From a virus, in the IMG/VR virus record IMGVR_UViG_3300037502_002424, positions 1 through 37,259 of that record: DNA of 37,259 nucleotides. One strand, given 5' to 3'. The notes beneath the pieces were generated by a model that was given only the letters and a program-made list of their open reading frames with translations, did no database searches and was not told the origin of the DNA. Below are positions 29,223 through 36,814 of the stretch, one piece after another. Each line of letters begins with the position of its first letter. The stretch's first letter is position 1. A program made the translations under genes and the position numbers.

Positions 29223-29446
29223 CCGGGGCCGTCGGCGTGCGCAAGGGCTGGCCTGACGAGGAGATCCTGCATGCGCTCGACCTGCGCGATCACGAGGGCC
29301 TGACCTACGGCCAGATCGACAAGCGGATCGACCGCACGCGCAATTCCGTCATCGCCACCCTGCGCGGTGTCGACGCGACGACGGACAAGCATGACCCGGA
29401 CGGATTTCAGAACGGCACGATGCCGCGGGGATGGTGGCGCAGATGA
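29219..29446 (+). CDS. GcrA-like / sigma-like small HTH protein
   Basis: A 75-residue protein. WPDEEILHALDLRDHEGLTYGQIDKRIDRTRNSVIATLRGVD is a homeodomain-like HTH of the type found in GcrA and in RNA polymerase sigma region 4 (LTYGQIDKRIDRTRNSVI recognition helix). The end is Trp-rich (GWWRR). A transcription regulator of the early operon is likely. The ATGA overlap follows. Confidence 0.65.
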   Translation: MTGAVGVRKGWPDEEILHALDLRDHEGLTYGQIDKRIDRTRNSVIATLRGVDATTDKHDPDGFQNGTMPRGWWRR

Positions 29447-30279
29447 CGCTTCGCATGATCGACATCGGTGACCGCGAGGTCATGCCGGCAGAAGTTTCCC
29501 GGCGCCCCGAACTTGTCTGGCTGCGGATCGCCGACCTGCTGGTCGACGACCGCTATCAGCGCGAGCTGACCGACCGCAGCTGGCGGCAGATCGAGCGGAT
29601 CGCCAAGGCTTTCACTTGGTCGCACTTCTCGCCGGTGCTGGTGGCGCCGGTGGGCGACAAGTTCTCGATCATCGACGGCCAGCACCGGACGCATGCGGCG
29701 AAGCTCGTCGGTCTGACCGATGTTCCGGCCATGCTGCTCGACCTCGATGACGCCGGTCAGGCGCGGGCCTTCGCAGCCGTCAACGGGATGGCGACGGCCG
29801 TCTCGGCCGCGCAGGTCTATCGCGCGGCACTCCTCGCGGGGGAGCCTTGGGCGGTTGAGGCCGAGAAGTCGGTCGAGCGGGCCGGGGCGCAGCTCATGGC
29901 CTACAACGCATCGGCGGCCAACAAGAAGCCGGGCGAGGTTTATTGCGTCGGCTGGGTGCGCGAGCAGATCGAGGCCGGTCGCGGTGCGCTGCTGACCCGT
30001 GCGCTGGCGGCGATCACCGGGTCAGGCCAGCGCAATGACCTCTTCATCTGGTCCTACCCGTTCCTGAAGGCGTGGCTTCTGGCCCTGCGCAACGTGCCCA
30101 AGGCAAAGGGTGCGGACCTGTCGGCCTTCCTCGACGCCTACCCGCCCGCGCGTCTCGACAAGGCCGTCTACCTGCTCAAGCGGGGCGACGATCCGGAATT
30201 CAGGCTGCAGTCGCACGCGGCGCTGCTCGCCGATGCCCTGCAGGCAAGGCTCGAGGATTGGGTCGGAGGCCGGTCATGA
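29443..30279 (+). CDS. ParB/Srx-fold protein
   Basis: A 278-residue protein starting at ATG 29443 in an ATGA overlap; ATG 29431 is an alternative. The N-terminal 120 residues are a ParB-type domain: LVWLRIADLLVDDRYQRELT, then HFSPVLVAPVGDKFSIIDGQHRTHAAKLVGL, which holds the GQHRxxAA motif. The middle and C-terminal parts (about 120-278) are helical (AVNGMATAVSAAQVYRAALLAG; LFIWSYPFLKAWLLALRNV). There is no ParA in the window, so plasmid-type partition is unlikely. Probably DNA-binding or replication-linked, since it starts the block that ends in primase and helicase. Confidence 0.8.
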   Translation: MTLRMIDIGDREVMPAEVSRRPELVWLRIADLLVDDRYQRELTDRSWRQIERIAKAFTWSHFSPVLVAPVGDKFSIIDGQHRTHAAKLVGLTDVPAMLLDLDDAGQARAFAAVNGMATAVSAAQVYRAALLAGEPWAVEAEKSVERAGAQLMAYNASAANKKPGEVYCVGWVREQIEAGRGALLTRALAAITGSGQRNDLFIWSYPFLKAWLLALRNVPKAKGADLSAFLDAYPPARLDKAVYLLKRGDDPEFRLQSHAALLADALQARLEDWVGGRS

Positions 30280-31647: not shown

Positions 31648-31826
31648 AACACTGGTCCGATGAAACCCGCTGGCAGTCGCTGACCGAGATCGTCGCCGGT
31701 CTCAAGGCCAAGGCCGAAGCCGCCTATCGCGAAGGGCGCGACGCGGATGCGGATGCCGCGCATGACGAACTGACCTCGGTCGAGCATCGGCTACGCATGG
31801 CAGAGCGGAGGGCGCGCCGTGCGTGA
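31644..31826 (+). CDS. 60-residue charged helical protein
   Basis: A short, highly charged protein: MKHWSDETRWQSLTEIVAGL, then KAKAEAAYREGRDADADAAHDELTSVEHRLRMAERRARRA. It reads as a single long helix, with acidic and basic residues alternating. It ends inside the primase start (8-base overlap). A possible primase partner, by position only. Confidence 0.55.
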   Translation: MKHWSDETRWQSLTEIVAGLKAKAEAAYREGRDADADAAHDELTSVEHRLRMAERRARRA

Positions 31827-32952
31827 CGATGCCCGCCTCGCTGAGGCCAAGCTCATTCCGATTATGGAGATTGCCGCGCGGCTGGACATCGCTGACCTCA
31901 AGCGTGGCGGCCGGGAATGGGTCGGGCCCTGCCCGGTCTGTGGCGGGCGGGATCGGTTCGGCATCAACCCCGACAAGGGCGTCTGGAACTGCCGCCACTG
32001 CGGCGCGGGCGATGGCATCAAGCTCGTCAGCCATGTCCTCGGCTGCGATTTCAAGGGCGCGCTGTCCTGGCTGATGGGCGAGGCGGGCGTCGATCTGGAC
32101 CCTGTAGAGGCAGCGCGCCGGAAAGCCGAGGCCGCCAAGAAGGACGCGGCGCGGCAGGCGGCGGCCGAGAAGGCGCGGGCCCGTGCCATCGCGCAGGCGC
32201 GCGACATCTGGAACGGATGCAGGCCCGCCGCCGGGACGCCGGTTTCGGCCTATCTGCGGTTGCGCGGCCTGCCCGCGTGGCTGGCCGATGCACCGCCGCC
32301 TGCGCTGCGGTTTCACCCGGCGCTGCCCTACATGGTGCCGGGCCCCGACGGGCGGTCCTATGTCGAAATTCACCGCGGGCCTGCGATGGTCGCCGGATGC
32401 CTTGCCCGCGACGGGCGGCTGAGTGCCGTGCATCGGACCTGGCTGGACCTGACCCGCGCGAAGGGCAAAGCCAAGATCCGGCACAATGGCGAAGAGATGC
32501 CGGCCAAGAAGATATGGGGGTCGAAAAAGGGCGCCGCGATCCGCCTGACCCATGCGCGCGGCGACGGCTTTGACACGCTGGTCATGGGCGAGGGGATCGA
32601 GACGACGCTCACCGCCTGCGCCGCCGACAGCTATCCGGGCGCCGCCTATTGGGCCGGGGTCGACCTCGGCAACATGAGCGGGCAGCGGATCATCCGCGGC
32701 GACGGCATGAAGTTCGCCGGAATCCCCGACCTCGAGGACAAGGACGCCTTCCTGCCGCCGCCCTGGGTCGAGTGGCTGGTCTTTATACAGGACGGCGATT
32801 CCGATCCGCAGCTGACCCGCGCGAAGCTCTTGGCCGGGCTGCGGCGAGCCAAGGCGCATTCGCGTCGGCTGCAGCGCATCTCGATCGTGCACGCGGGCGA
32901 GGGGCGCGACCTCAATGATCTAGTGATGGAGGAGGTGGCCGATGCCGCATGA
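31819..32952 (+). CDS. P4-type primase: zinc ribbon plus Toprim
   Basis: A 377-residue primase starting at GTG 31819. Residues 35-70 hold a zinc ribbon of the Prim_Zn_Ribbon type (CPVCGGRDRFGINPDKGVWNCRHCGAGDG), which reads template DNA. A helical linker (about 90-135, VEAARRKAEAAKKDAARQAAAEKARARA) follows. The Toprim domain includes VMGEGIETTLTA (catalytic Glu, about 255-266), GVDLGNM, and FIQDGDSDPQ (about 315-324), the acidic metal-binding motif. It would synthesise RNA primers at the phage origin. The helicase part is not fused but lies downstream as a separate gene, with three small genes between. Confidence 0.85.
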   Translation: MRDDARLAEAKLIPIMEIAARLDIADLKRGGREWVGPCPVCGGRDRFGINPDKGVWNCRHCGAGDGIKLVSHVLGCDFKGALSWLMGEAGVDLDPVEAARRKAEAAKKDAARQAAAEKARARAIAQARDIWNGCRPAAGTPVSAYLRLRGLPAWLADAPPPALRFHPALPYMVPGPDGRSYVEIHRGPAMVAGCLARDGRLSAVHRTWLDLTRAKGKAKIRHNGEEMPAKKIWGSKKGAAIRLTHARGDGFDTLVMGEGIETTLTACAADSYPGAAYWAGVDLGNMSGQRIIRGDGMKFAGIPDLEDKDAFLPPPWVEWLVFIQDGDSDPQLTRAKLLAGLRRAKAHSRRLQRISIVHAGEGRDLNDLVMEEVADAA

Positions 32953-33597: not shown

Positions 33598-33848
33598 GCG
33601 GCCCGATCGTCAGCTATCGCGGTGTCAGTGTCCGGGCGGCGCCTTGGGAGACGCCGGTCAAGCGTGCGGTCGACCCGGTTTCGTCGGTGATTGCCCCCGT
33701 CTCAGTCCCGCCAGCGCCCGGTCACTGCCGCTTTCCGGGCTGCGGCCAGGCCATCCGGCGCGACAATTATCAGGGGCTTTGCCGGTCTCACTCTCATGCG
33801 AGGGGCTACTGCGCCTGCGTCCAATGTCAGCGGAAAGGGCACAAATGA
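33594..33848 (+). CDS. small zinc-binding protein
   Basis: An 84-residue protein with a C-terminal cluster of Cys and His: HCRFPGCGQAI, LCRSHSHARGYC, then ACVQCQRKGHK. The spacing suggests a zinc fold, of the type found in small phage DNA-binding proteins. The N-terminal 35 residues are Pro- and Val-rich. It overlaps the HD gene and helicase by 4 bases each. Possible helper in replication. Confidence 0.65.
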   Translation: MSGPIVSYRGVSVRAAPWETPVKRAVDPVSSVIAPVSVPPAPGHCRFPGCGQAIRRDNYQGLCRSHSHARGYCACVQCQRKGHK

Positions 33849-35707
33849 CCGACCCACTCGATCCAGTCCGGCGCGTGATGGCAGAGCCTGAGGATGTCGA
33901 CATGGGCGGCGTGCCATCGGCCGATGAGTTTCCCGACGACGATCCCGGGCCAGAGATGGGCGACGGGTGGGAGCCGGATTTCGACGGGCCCGATGGTCCG
34001 CCGCCAGAACCGCCCGAGGATGGCGATCGCGAGCGACACGTCGCGGCGGCGGCCTTCCCTCTGAACGACATCGGCAATGGCAAGCGATTTGCGACCTACT
34101 TCGGTGAGGACGTGATGTCAGTGCCGCGCGTCGGCTGGTTTTCATGGGATTCGACCCGGTGGGCCAAGGACGTCGACAAGATCGCCGTCCGCACGCGGGC
34201 GCAGAAAGTCAGCGATCTTATGTTGCGCGAGATCGAGCACATGGCCGTCGAGCCATGGGAAAAGAAGCGGTTGGACGAGCTGCCTGCGGCGATCGCGGCG
34301 GCCAAGGGCCTCGAGGCTCAGAGTCGGACGCCGGAGCAGGATGCAGAGCTGGACAAGCTTTGGGCGAAGGTTCGCGCGGGCGAGGCGCTGAAGAAGGAGG
34401 TATCGCGCCGCAAGGGTGAATATCGGCGCTTTGCCAAATCGACAGGCAACACGGGCAAGATCGAGGCGATGCTGACCGAGGCGTCGATCGGTCTGAGCAG
34501 ACCGCTCGAGGCGCTCGATTCCGACCCGATCGCAGTCAACACGCTTTCGGGCACCCTGAAGTTCTGCGTCAGTGGCCCGAGCGAGCACGGGGACACGCCC
34601 GTTGCATCGGTTGTCCTGGCTCCCCACGATCGCGCCGATCTGCTGACAAAGTGCATGGCGGTCCATTACGACCCCGAGGCCAAAGCACCGCTATTCGACA
34701 GCTTCCTGCAGCGGATCATGCCTGACCCGGAAATGCGGAGATTCCTGCAGCGGTCTTTCGGCCTGTCCATGACAGCCCGCCTCGAGCAGCGGATCTGGTT
34801 CTTCTACGGCCACGGTGCCAACGGCAAGTCCGTGCTGGTCGACCTGATGGCGCGCATGCTCGGCGACTATGCGGCAACCGCCAAGATCGAGACGCTGACG
34901 GGCCAGACGAAGCGCAGCGGGGCTGATGCCACTCCGGACCTCATCCCGCTCATGGGCGCGCGCATGGTGCGGGCCTCGGAGCCTGAACAGGGCGAGCGGC
35001 TGAAGGAGGGCATCATCAAGGAGCTGACCGGCGGCGAACCGATCCTGGTGCGCGCGCTGCATTCTGACTTCATCGAGGTGCATCCGGTCTTCAAGCTCTT
35101 TATCTCGGGCAACCACAAGCCTGAGATCCGCGGCACCGACGACGGGATCTGGCGCCGCGTGCTGATGGTGCTCTTCGACGTCCAGATACCGGAGCGAGAG
35201 CGGGATCCGGACCTGGGCAAGAAGCTCTACCTTGAAGCGCCCGGGATCCTGAACTGGATGATCGAGGGCCTGCTGTCCTATCTCGAGGTCGGGCTGCAGG
35301 TGCCGCAACAGGTGCAGGATGCCACGCAGGCTTATCGCGAGGAAAACGACCCGATCGGGATGTTCCTCGACGCCTGCTGCGAGGTGACGGGCGATGCGGG
35401 CACGTTCACCCGCTCGGCCGAGCTGACAGACGCGTTCAACTTCTGGACCGCCGCAGAGCAGGGCAGCACGCAATGGTCGGGTCGACAGTTCCAGATGAAG
35501 CTGAAGGACAAGGCCGAGCGATGGCGGGATCCGCGCACCGGCCTTTCGTTCATCTGCTCCAAGCGATCGGTCTCCGGCTATCAGGGGCTCGCACTCACTG
35601 CAATGTTCCGGCAGCGGATGGCCAACGCGATCGCTGAGGGGAAGTGGAAGCGCGCGCCTGGCACAGGTTCCAGCGGTGAAGAGGTGCCCGATGCGGCCGA
35701 CTTCTGA
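33845..35707 (+). CDS. D5/P4-type replicative helicase
   Basis: A 620-residue superfamily 3-type helicase of the phage/plasmid primase P4 C-terminal family. The first 75 residues are acidic and disordered (DDDPGPEMGDGWEPDFDGPD). The D5 N-terminal domain, about 80-300, follows. Walker A is FYGHGANGKSVL at about 320-331, then LMGARMVRASEPEQGERLKEG (Walker B-type region) and FKLFISGNHKPEIRGTDDGIWRRV, in which the Asn is sensor 1 and the Arg an arginine finger. It would unwind phage DNA at the origin. The next 420 bp hold the iteron region. Confidence 0.9.
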   Translation: MTDPLDPVRRVMAEPEDVDMGGVPSADEFPDDDPGPEMGDGWEPDFDGPDGPPPEPPEDGDRERHVAAAAFPLNDIGNGKRFATYFGEDVMSVPRVGWFSWDSTRWAKDVDKIAVRTRAQKVSDLMLREIEHMAVEPWEKKRLDELPAAIAAAKGLEAQSRTPEQDAELDKLWAKVRAGEALKKEVSRRKGEYRRFAKSTGNTGKIEAMLTEASIGLSRPLEALDSDPIAVNTLSGTLKFCVSGPSEHGDTPVASVVLAPHDRADLLTKCMAVHYDPEAKAPLFDSFLQRIMPDPEMRRFLQRSFGLSMTARLEQRIWFFYGHGANGKSVLVDLMARMLGDYAATAKIETLTGQTKRSGADATPDLIPLMGARMVRASEPEQGERLKEGIIKELTGGEPILVRALHSDFIEVHPVFKLFISGNHKPEIRGTDDGIWRRVLMVLFDVQIPERERDPDLGKKLYLEAPGILNWMIEGLLSYLEVGLQVPQQVQDATQAYREENDPIGMFLDACCEVTGDAGTFTRSAELTDAFNFWTAAEQGSTQWSGRQFQMKLKDKAERWRDPRTGLSFICSKRSVSGYQGLALTAMFRQRMANAIAEGKWKRAPGTGSSGEEVPDAADF

Positions 35708-35891
35708 CCGTCAGTCCCGGTCCCCCACCTTTGATCTTGCGGGAGGAATGGGAGCTTCTCCCGCTGGCAGGGAGGATGATGGGAGGTTCGGGGTGTGGGG
35801 ATTGTGTTTCAGGATCAGGGCCTTAGGGCTGCTATGGCAGCATAGGGAGGAAGTTTGGCAGGTAATGCGCGCGCGCGATGTTGGACGGTGA
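35691..35891 (+). CDS. possible small protein overlapping the origin region
   Basis: A 66-residue ORF overlapping the helicase 3' end by 17 bases (ATG 35691). MRPTSDRQSRSPTFDLAGGM looks natural, but the middle codes for parts of the repeats (GGASPAGREDDGRFGVWG), and the end falls in the inverted repeat. It may be real with a cis-acting role overlapped, or fortuitous. No family recognised. Confidence 0.3.
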   Translation: MRPTSDRQSRSPTFDLAGGMGASPAGREDDGRFGVWGLCFRIRALGLLWQHREEVWQVMRARDVGR

Positions 35892-35943
35892 TCTGCAGGA
35901 CAATCACTCTCTACGCATTACCCCTGAAACTTCCTCCCTATGC
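35840..35943. repeat. 30-bp inverted repeat around a 44-bp loop
   Basis: The arm 35840-35869 matches the reverse complement of 35914-35943 at 26 of 30 bases. The outer 17 bases (35840-35856 against 35927-35943) are perfect, and the inner nine (GGTAATGCG) also match. Each arm contains one GGGAGGAAGT iteron. In single-stranded DNA or RNA this would form a long hairpin. Confidence 0.8.
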
Positions 35944-36007
35944 TCCCTATGCTCCCTTCTCAAAAAAAGAACATCGACAATTCAAAAGGTTAGAGAGAGG
36001 CCGATAT

Positions 36008-36058
36008 GGGAGGAAGTGGGAGGAACATGGGAGGAAGTCTGGCTCAATGGGAGGAAGT
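36008..36058 (+). repeat. four phased iterons
   Basis: GGGAGGAAGT at 36008, 36029 and 36049 and GGGAGGAACA at 36018, each preceded by T. Start-to-start distances are 10, 11 and 20 bp, about one, one and two helical turns, so a bound protein would line up on one face of the DNA. The spacing is not that of a coding repeat (not a multiple of three). Confidence 0.8.
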
Positions 36059-36127
36059 CAAAAGCGGAGAATCAAGGACGTGTGGACGGGCGCGAAAGTG
36101 GCACAACATATAGGATGGGAAGAGACG

Positions 36128-36814
36128 ATGGGCGCGAGACGGCAAGGATCAACGGTCAGGGACTGGCTGGCAGCCGAGGATGCGGCGGTCGAGGCGGCCA
36201 AGCGGGCGGCGAAACCGCCCGAGACGGCGAGCCCCAACATCATCGCTGCACCCGCGCGCGGGCCGCAGCTGGTGACGCCGCAGTTCGAAACCGTGCAGAC
36301 CCCGTCAGGGCCGCGCACACGCCGCGCCACGCAGGACGGGTTCCACCCTGTGCGTCAGGCAGACGCCTTCGACGTCATGGCGCTCCAGCACAAGCGGGCG
36401 GGCGGCAAGGGCGCGCTGTTCACCGTGGCGCAGGTGGAGGCGGGGCGCGCCTATGCTGCGCTGGCAGAGCGGTGTGCATCGGAGGGGCTGCGCTGCACGT
36501 CGCCTGAGGCGCGTGTGCAGGGCCAATGCCAGCACGTCGACTGGATAGAGGGCGTGATTGCCAGGTCGCGCAGGCTGGCGCAGATGCGCGCGGCGATCGG
36601 CGACGACGTGGCCATGGAGCCTGAGTGGGTCGGCGGCAAGCGCAGGGCCGTCCGCGTGCGTGCGCTGGTCGATGGCGTCTGTATCGAGGGGAAGACCCTG
36701 GGCCGCGTGCTGCAGGCGCACGGGTGGCACCCGAGGGGCTCAGGCGTGGCGATGCTGCAGCAAGAGCTGAATCGGGCGCTCGATCGGCTGCACGACGTGA
36801 CCGGCAACCTCTAG
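36128..36814 (+). CDS. phage protein of unknown function before the packaging genes
   Basis: A 228-residue protein. ATG 36128 with GGAAGAG upstream is chosen, since the ORF upstream is made of iteron sequence. N-terminal 85 residues are Ala- and Pro-rich. The middle has VAQVEAGRAYAALAERCASEGLRC and VIARSRRLAQMRAAIGDD, and the end LVDGVCIEGKTLGRVLQAHGWHPRGSGVAMLQQELNRALDRLHDV. The last segment resembles a small DNA-binding helix set. Its place just before a promoter and the HNH-terminase block suits a late regulator, but that is inference. Confidence 0.65.
   Translation: MGARRQGSTVRDWLAAEDAAVEAAKRAAKPPETASPNIIAAPARGPQLVTPQFETVQTPSGPRTRRATQDGFHPVRQADAFDVMALQHKRAGGKGALFTVAQVEAGRAYAALAERCASEGLRCTSPEARVQGQCQHVDWIEGVIARSRRLAQMRAAIGDDVAMEPEWVGGKRRAVRVRALVDGVCIEGKTLGRVLQAHGWHPRGSGVAMLQQELNRALDRLHDVTGNL

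Follow-up and report, generated by a model that had tools for sequence, protein, structure and literature searches.

A probable phage replication origin built of phased 9-bp iterons directly downstream of a D5-type helicase gene

The described origins closest to the element reported here lie directly 3' of an initiator gene and are known from P4, phage A2, and the SaPI/PICI satellites. P4, whose alpha protein is a fused primase-helicase, has two separate cis regions (ori1 and crr); crr is found directly 3' of alpha and holds 8-bp repeats, 9 and 18 bp apart, on both strands, and the origin-binding domain of alpha (1KA8) is a C-terminal winged helix. In Lactobacillus phage A2 (NC_004112), the annotated rep_origin (32208–32717) directly follows the gene of a homologous D5-type primase-helicase and contains GGGAGGAT / ACGGGAGGAT iterons in two opposed sets with an AT-rich core between them; opposed repeats are also present at the equivalent place in PSA and a Staphylococcus phage. 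SaPI and E. coli PICI origins consist of two iteron sets directly 3' of rep and drive plasmid replication (PMC6092414), and the PICI layout was stated to occur in no other replicon (PMC6092414). SaPI/PICI initiators read the iterons through their C-terminal domain, SaPI Rep apparently as two hexamers, and in the SCCmec Cch2 module the C-terminal domain of a D5-type helicase binds repeats directly downstream of its own gene (PMC7581432).

The window, i.e., the whole 37,259-bp stretch of viral DNA analyzed here, carries terminase, portal, lysozyme, and integrase genes and probably derives from a temperate tailed phage. Its intergenic element at 35708–36127 is probably a form of the P4/SaPI/PICI kind of origin: it lies 3' of a D5-type helicase gene, its short iterons are arranged in opposed sets (with the right outer set of the window flipped), and the helicase has a predicted C-terminal winged helix. 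We infer, with a probability of about 0.85, that this element is the phage replication origin and that the winged helix reads its iterons, a reading of function that draws on the position after the primase-helicase module, on the known relatives (A2, PSA, and P4), and on the SaPI/PICI literature. The sequence-only reading had also called an origin at this place, and the call gains from the conserved position and architecture described below and from the equal placement of the annotated A2 origin and P4 crr.

The element is nonetheless distinct from each of these systems. Where P4 has two cis regions and a fused alpha, the window has one element of a mirror-symmetric type and a primase encoded by a separate gene. 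Phage A2 shares the two opposed sets but has few iterons (three on the plus and four on the minus strand), irregular spacing of 8, 12, and 64 bp, and a strongly AT-rich centre. The SaPI/PICI origins share the position directly 3' of the initiator gene and the two sets of short iterons; unlike these satellites, the window family resides in complete temperate phages, has a 9-bp phased geometry with inner triplets, and places its AT-rich stretch beside the inner sets instead of between them. In the window, this stretch does have iterons on both sides, but these are the right inner and right outer sets, and the stretch is not in the centre. Cch2 likewise pairs a D5-type helicase with repeats directly downstream, but there are only three 5-nt iterons in a 23-bp region and the primase is of the polymerase type. 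An iteron plasmid origin of the Rep_3/RepA type, with 17–22-bp iterons and a Rep_3-type initiator, was rejected because the unit here is 9 bp long and the adjacent initiator candidate is a D5-type helicase. The relevant features of the window are as follows.

169–774 and 29431–30279: ParB_N-domain proteins
31819–32952, plus strand: TOPRIM/zinc-ribbon primase (DUF7146, Zn_Ribbon_Prim, Zn_ribbon_DnaG), a separate gene of the same replication module
33845–35707, plus strand: D5-type helicase (Pfam D5_N, 7.8e-21; DUF5906, 2e-8), probable initiator
35708–36127, no strand: whole probable origin element, intergenic, from the helicase stop (35707) to an ATG (36128)
35741, 35770, 35781, 35845, 36008, 36018, 36029, and 36049, plus strand, and 35933, minus strand: the nine GGGAGG copies
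35741–35758, plus strand: left outer iteron pair GGGAGGAAT, GGGAGCTTC, 9-bp spacing
35770–35778, plus strand: left outer iteron GGGAGGATG
35781–35789, plus strand: left outer iteron GGGAGGTTC
35836–35853, plus strand: left inner tandem GGCAGCATA, GGGAGGAAG, 9-bp spacing
35836–35869 / 35914–35947: 34-nt inverted repeat, 85% complementary, enclosing the 17-bp core
35840–35856 / 35927–35943: 17-bp perfect inverted repeat
35861–35877, plus strand: GGTAATGCGCGCGCGCG, where the centre begins, with a CGCGCG run (35867–35877)
35914–35922, minus strand: CGCATTACC, inverted partner of GGTAATGCG at 35861–35869
35930–35956, minus strand: right inner array of three tandem iterons, GGGAGGAAG, GGGAGCATA, GGGAGCATA in minus-strand reading (units 35930–35938, 35939–35947, and 35948–35956)
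35960–35999, no strand: AT-rich stretch, probable unwinding element (70% and 65% AT per 20-bp bin)
36008–36057, plus strand: right outer set of four iterons (36008, 36018, 36029, 36049)
36128–36814, plus strand: conserved gene right after the element, with a homologue in 69 of 128 loci

The nine GGGAGG-type repeats noticed in the sequence-only reading are indeed there, eight on the plus and one on the minus strand, against at most two per 420 bp elsewhere when the whole 37,259-bp record was scanned and at most four in 2000 dinucleotide shuffles of the element. Five of the nine copies are exact GGGAGGAAGT, which occurs nowhere else in the record, and the last four plus-strand copies have the phasing of 10, 11, and 20 bp that had been described. 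The perfect inverted repeat of 17 bp, the mostly noncoding character of the ~420 bp, and the AT-rich stretch (~68% AT versus 35% for the record) were likewise borne out. Once GGGAGC/GGCAGC variants are allowed, 9-bp tandems emerge that had escaped the earlier description (starts 35741/35750 and 35836/35845, plus the minus-strand triplet at 35930–35956), and a 9-bp iteron with the core GGNNNG describes the repeat unit better than GGGAGGAAGT does. The window copy counts 6+7 iterons including variants; exact 6+6 symmetry fails in this copy because the right outer set is flipped to the plus strand and the left inner array has two units, one of them degenerate. A pattern scan of the element found no sigma-70 promoter or terminator, and an Rfam search returned only sub-threshold miRNA noise. 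A G-quadruplex was also considered for the GGG runs but dropped, since several units (CGGCCCGAA and GGACAGCAA) do not have the G runs that it needs. The GC skew of the record says little on the origin, since it keeps one sign over most of the record and almost all genes lie on the plus strand.

We compared 160 loci obtained from two collection scans, together with named phages; 128 loci are non-redundant. In prophages of Rhodobacterales, in cyanophages, and in phages of other alphaproteobacteria, the element immediately follows the gene of a homologous D5-type helicase, and it is found at the same place in about 90–115 of the 128 non-redundant relatives. A 6-mer repeated at a lag of 9 is present in 114 of the 128 regions downstream of the helicase versus 31 same-length upstream coding controls. 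After phase alignment, the iterons share the common form GGNNNG, with positions 3–5 and 7–9 variable: the core is GGGAGG in 37 loci, GGCTTG in 9, GGGACG in 8, GGGAAG in 7, GGCCCG in 6, GGGCAG in 6, and GGCCTG in 5, in addition to rarer forms, and units unlike those of the window include GGGACGCAA, CGGCCCGAA, and GGGCCTGAA. Even three loci with a helicase 78% identical to that of the window (L006–L008) carry GGGAGGTA units at equivalent places and no exact GGGAGGAAGT, while L009–L012 mix GGGAGGAAGT with GGGAGGATA. Thus, the expectation that the same repeat would recur at the same place in relatives holds for position and architecture but not for the exact sequence, and taking the absence of the repeats from close relatives as evidence against an origin would be wrong, because it is the architecture that is conserved.

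The geometry is fixed, whereas the iteron sequence varies from phage to phage. Two tandem arrays, one on the plus and one on the minus strand, face each other in 86 loci, mostly 72–90 bp apart, and in both halves the iterons lie, as mirror images, at offsets of 0, -9, -18, about -85, -106, and -115 from the innermost copy. Six iterons per half and twelve per element are the commonest counts, the full set being seen, for example, in L170, L057, L065, and L161. The clade of the window is shifted, with left iterons at about -104, -95, -75, -64, -9, and 0 (-105, -96, -75, -64, -9, and 0 in L115), and the right outer set, which is on the minus strand in most relatives, is on the plus strand in the window, L115, and L019. 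Across loci, the part of the right half that separates its inner from its outer set is AT-rich (0.54–0.61), and 35960–35999 occupies this place in the window; the centre averages 44% AT. Of 81 loci, 72% have a CGCGCG run just inside the left inner array and 1% have one on the right side. This asymmetric run and the flipped outer set indicate that strict symmetry is not required.

Searches for the sequence itself recovered little of this family. Whole-region blastn against phages gave only 26-bp matches, which fall within the homologous elements of two cyanophages. When viral contigs were scanned for a pair of exact GGGAGGAAGT copies, 13 loci came up. The five with the helicase (L009–L012 and L019) are true relatives; the other loci are without helicase and look like chance or protein-coding repeats. 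Three genomes contain two or more such prophages (L040/L045, L053/L056, and L068/L079), with iterons that differ in two genomes and are the same in one; no iteron exclusion rule among prophages sharing a genome was seen in these three.

Several lines of analysis point to the helicase as the protein that reads the iterons. Its AlphaFold2 model (pLDDT 85.5) has the winged-helix order of elements at residues 503–597, a predicted winged-helix origin-binding domain, and its profile matches the primase-helicase structure 7ola ('DNA primase') over residues 285–561. Predicted alone (pLDDT 76.5), the C-terminal domain matches the P4 origin-binding domain 1ka8 over 87 of 100 residues at 2.9 Å, with a supportive Z of 8.1 that is near the level reachable by unrelated folds; the match ranks beside the equivalent domain of AsfvPrimPol and the RFX DNA-binding domain. 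Foldseek alone ranks 1ka8 low (E 1.3), so the likeness to P4 is support and not proof. A sliding-window identity correlation was weak and pointed to residues 341–380; column covariation under a tree control was used in its place. The best 40-residue helicase window for covariation with iteron positions 3–5 is 542–581, which comprises the recognition helix and wing. Of 60 label sets simulated along the helicase tree, 1 reaches the excess of this modest signal, a figure that is optimistic because attention turned to the recognition-helix region once the leading columns had been seen; covariation of the whole winged helix was not significant (10 of 60 simulations).

The candidate readers named in the sequence-only reading (i.e., a ParB-like protein, an HD-adjacent zinc protein, or the helicase) narrow to the last. 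Among 67 array-bearing loci with long flanks, ParB-like proteins are present in 14, HD proteins in 6, and zinc proteins in 4, so none of these can be the general reader; the probable reader of the origin is the helicase, by way of its C-terminal winged helix. The primase (57 of the 67 loci) and the protein encoded at 36128–36814 (39 of 67), which has no Pfam or PHROGs match, are more widespread, and either could instead read the origin and load the helicase. The iteron label needs 16 changes on each of their trees, as good a fit as on the tree of the whole helicase, but the tree of the helicase C-terminal domain fits best (14 changes), though by little. Given also the P4-like domain of the helicase, the covariation in its recognition surface, and the many members in which the downstream gene was not found, we regard reading by either of these proteins as unlikely.

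If the helicase is the reader, initiation may be envisaged as follows. One iteron would be bound by the C-terminal winged helix of each subunit, so that the six iterons of a half would collect one helicase hexamer, and the two opposed halves would place two hexamers face to face across the 72–90-bp centre. The helicases would then melt the adjoining AT-rich stretch, load themselves, and thread; the separate TOPRIM primase would lay primers for the forks and leave with the helicases. Each phage lineage would keep an iteron code of its own, with corresponding changes in the recognition helix and wing. The count of six per half fits hexamers, without being proof of them. A broader reading, which we hold tentatively and at somewhat less than even odds, is that these loci define a large, previously undescribed class of phage origins. 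In this class, two helicase hexamers facing each other would be templated by twelve 9-bp iterons, six in each mirror half; the iteron and the winged helix of the helicase would have changed in concert on many occasions, giving a readable protein-DNA code and mutually orthogonal origins.

A literature search that covered few subscription journals found no description of the 9-bp phased mirror form in complete temperate phages, or of sequence turnover under a fixed geometry. The family bears on the statement that the PICI layout is found in no other replicon (PMC6092414), as a close form occurs in temperate phages of Rhodobacterales, other alphaproteobacteria, and cyanobacteria. With the geometry fixed and the sequence changing, two questions become directly testable: the way in which self-loading D5 helicases position two hexamers at an origin, and the way in which the specificities of initiator and origin change together. 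The relatives may provide a natural set of matched origin-and-initiator pairs, which could serve as orthogonal replicons for alphaproteobacteria.

A cos or pac site, in which the repeats would be binding sites of the terminase small subunit and the DNA would be cut in the AT-rich stretch, is a serious rival because terminase genes follow the element and because the record of phage RcapNL puts a 26-nt overhang inside it. Many members have HNH and terminase genes in the next few kb downstream, and the RcapNL record (NC_020489) annotates the 26-nt '3' cohesive overhang' (L189:1–26 and L026:4948–4973) within the right AT-rich stretch of the homologous element. However, RcapNL is listed as circularly permuted (PMC8601537), for which reason the annotation may reflect an assembly overlap, and the 26 nt are identical at both record ends, as such an overlap would give. 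In RcCronus, which has defined cos ends, the 9-bp iterons after the helicase are 1.3–1.6 kb from the genome end, and of the 73 array loci that have 4.8 kb of downstream sequence, only 39 yielded a terL-like gene there. The iteron label requires 22 changes on the terL tree (shuffled mean 25.3, minimum 23) versus 16–18 on the helicase trees of the same 46 loci; judged by these trees, the label appears to follow the helicase and not to be inherited with the terminase, as packaging-site specificity would be. We therefore consider a packaging site quite improbable. The repeats of RcCronus (NC_042049, L190:34332–34625) are of the GGGGACTTA type, with one gene between them and the helicase; the phage also carries RepA and ParA genes, and no origin is annotated at these coordinates.

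Least probable of all, and in our view very remote, is a parS-like partition site or operator cluster, at which the binding of a ParB-like protein or another small protein of the phage would control the gene downstream: two ParB_N-domain proteins are encoded in the window and a conserved gene begins directly after the element, but most array loci are without ParB-like, zinc, or HD proteins, the array persists where the downstream gene was not found, and the element scan gave no promoter or terminator pattern. The ParB_N open reading frame near the record start (169–774) encodes 201 aa with zinc-ribbon-like cysteines at its end and may be a remnant of a longer ParB-methyltransferase gene.
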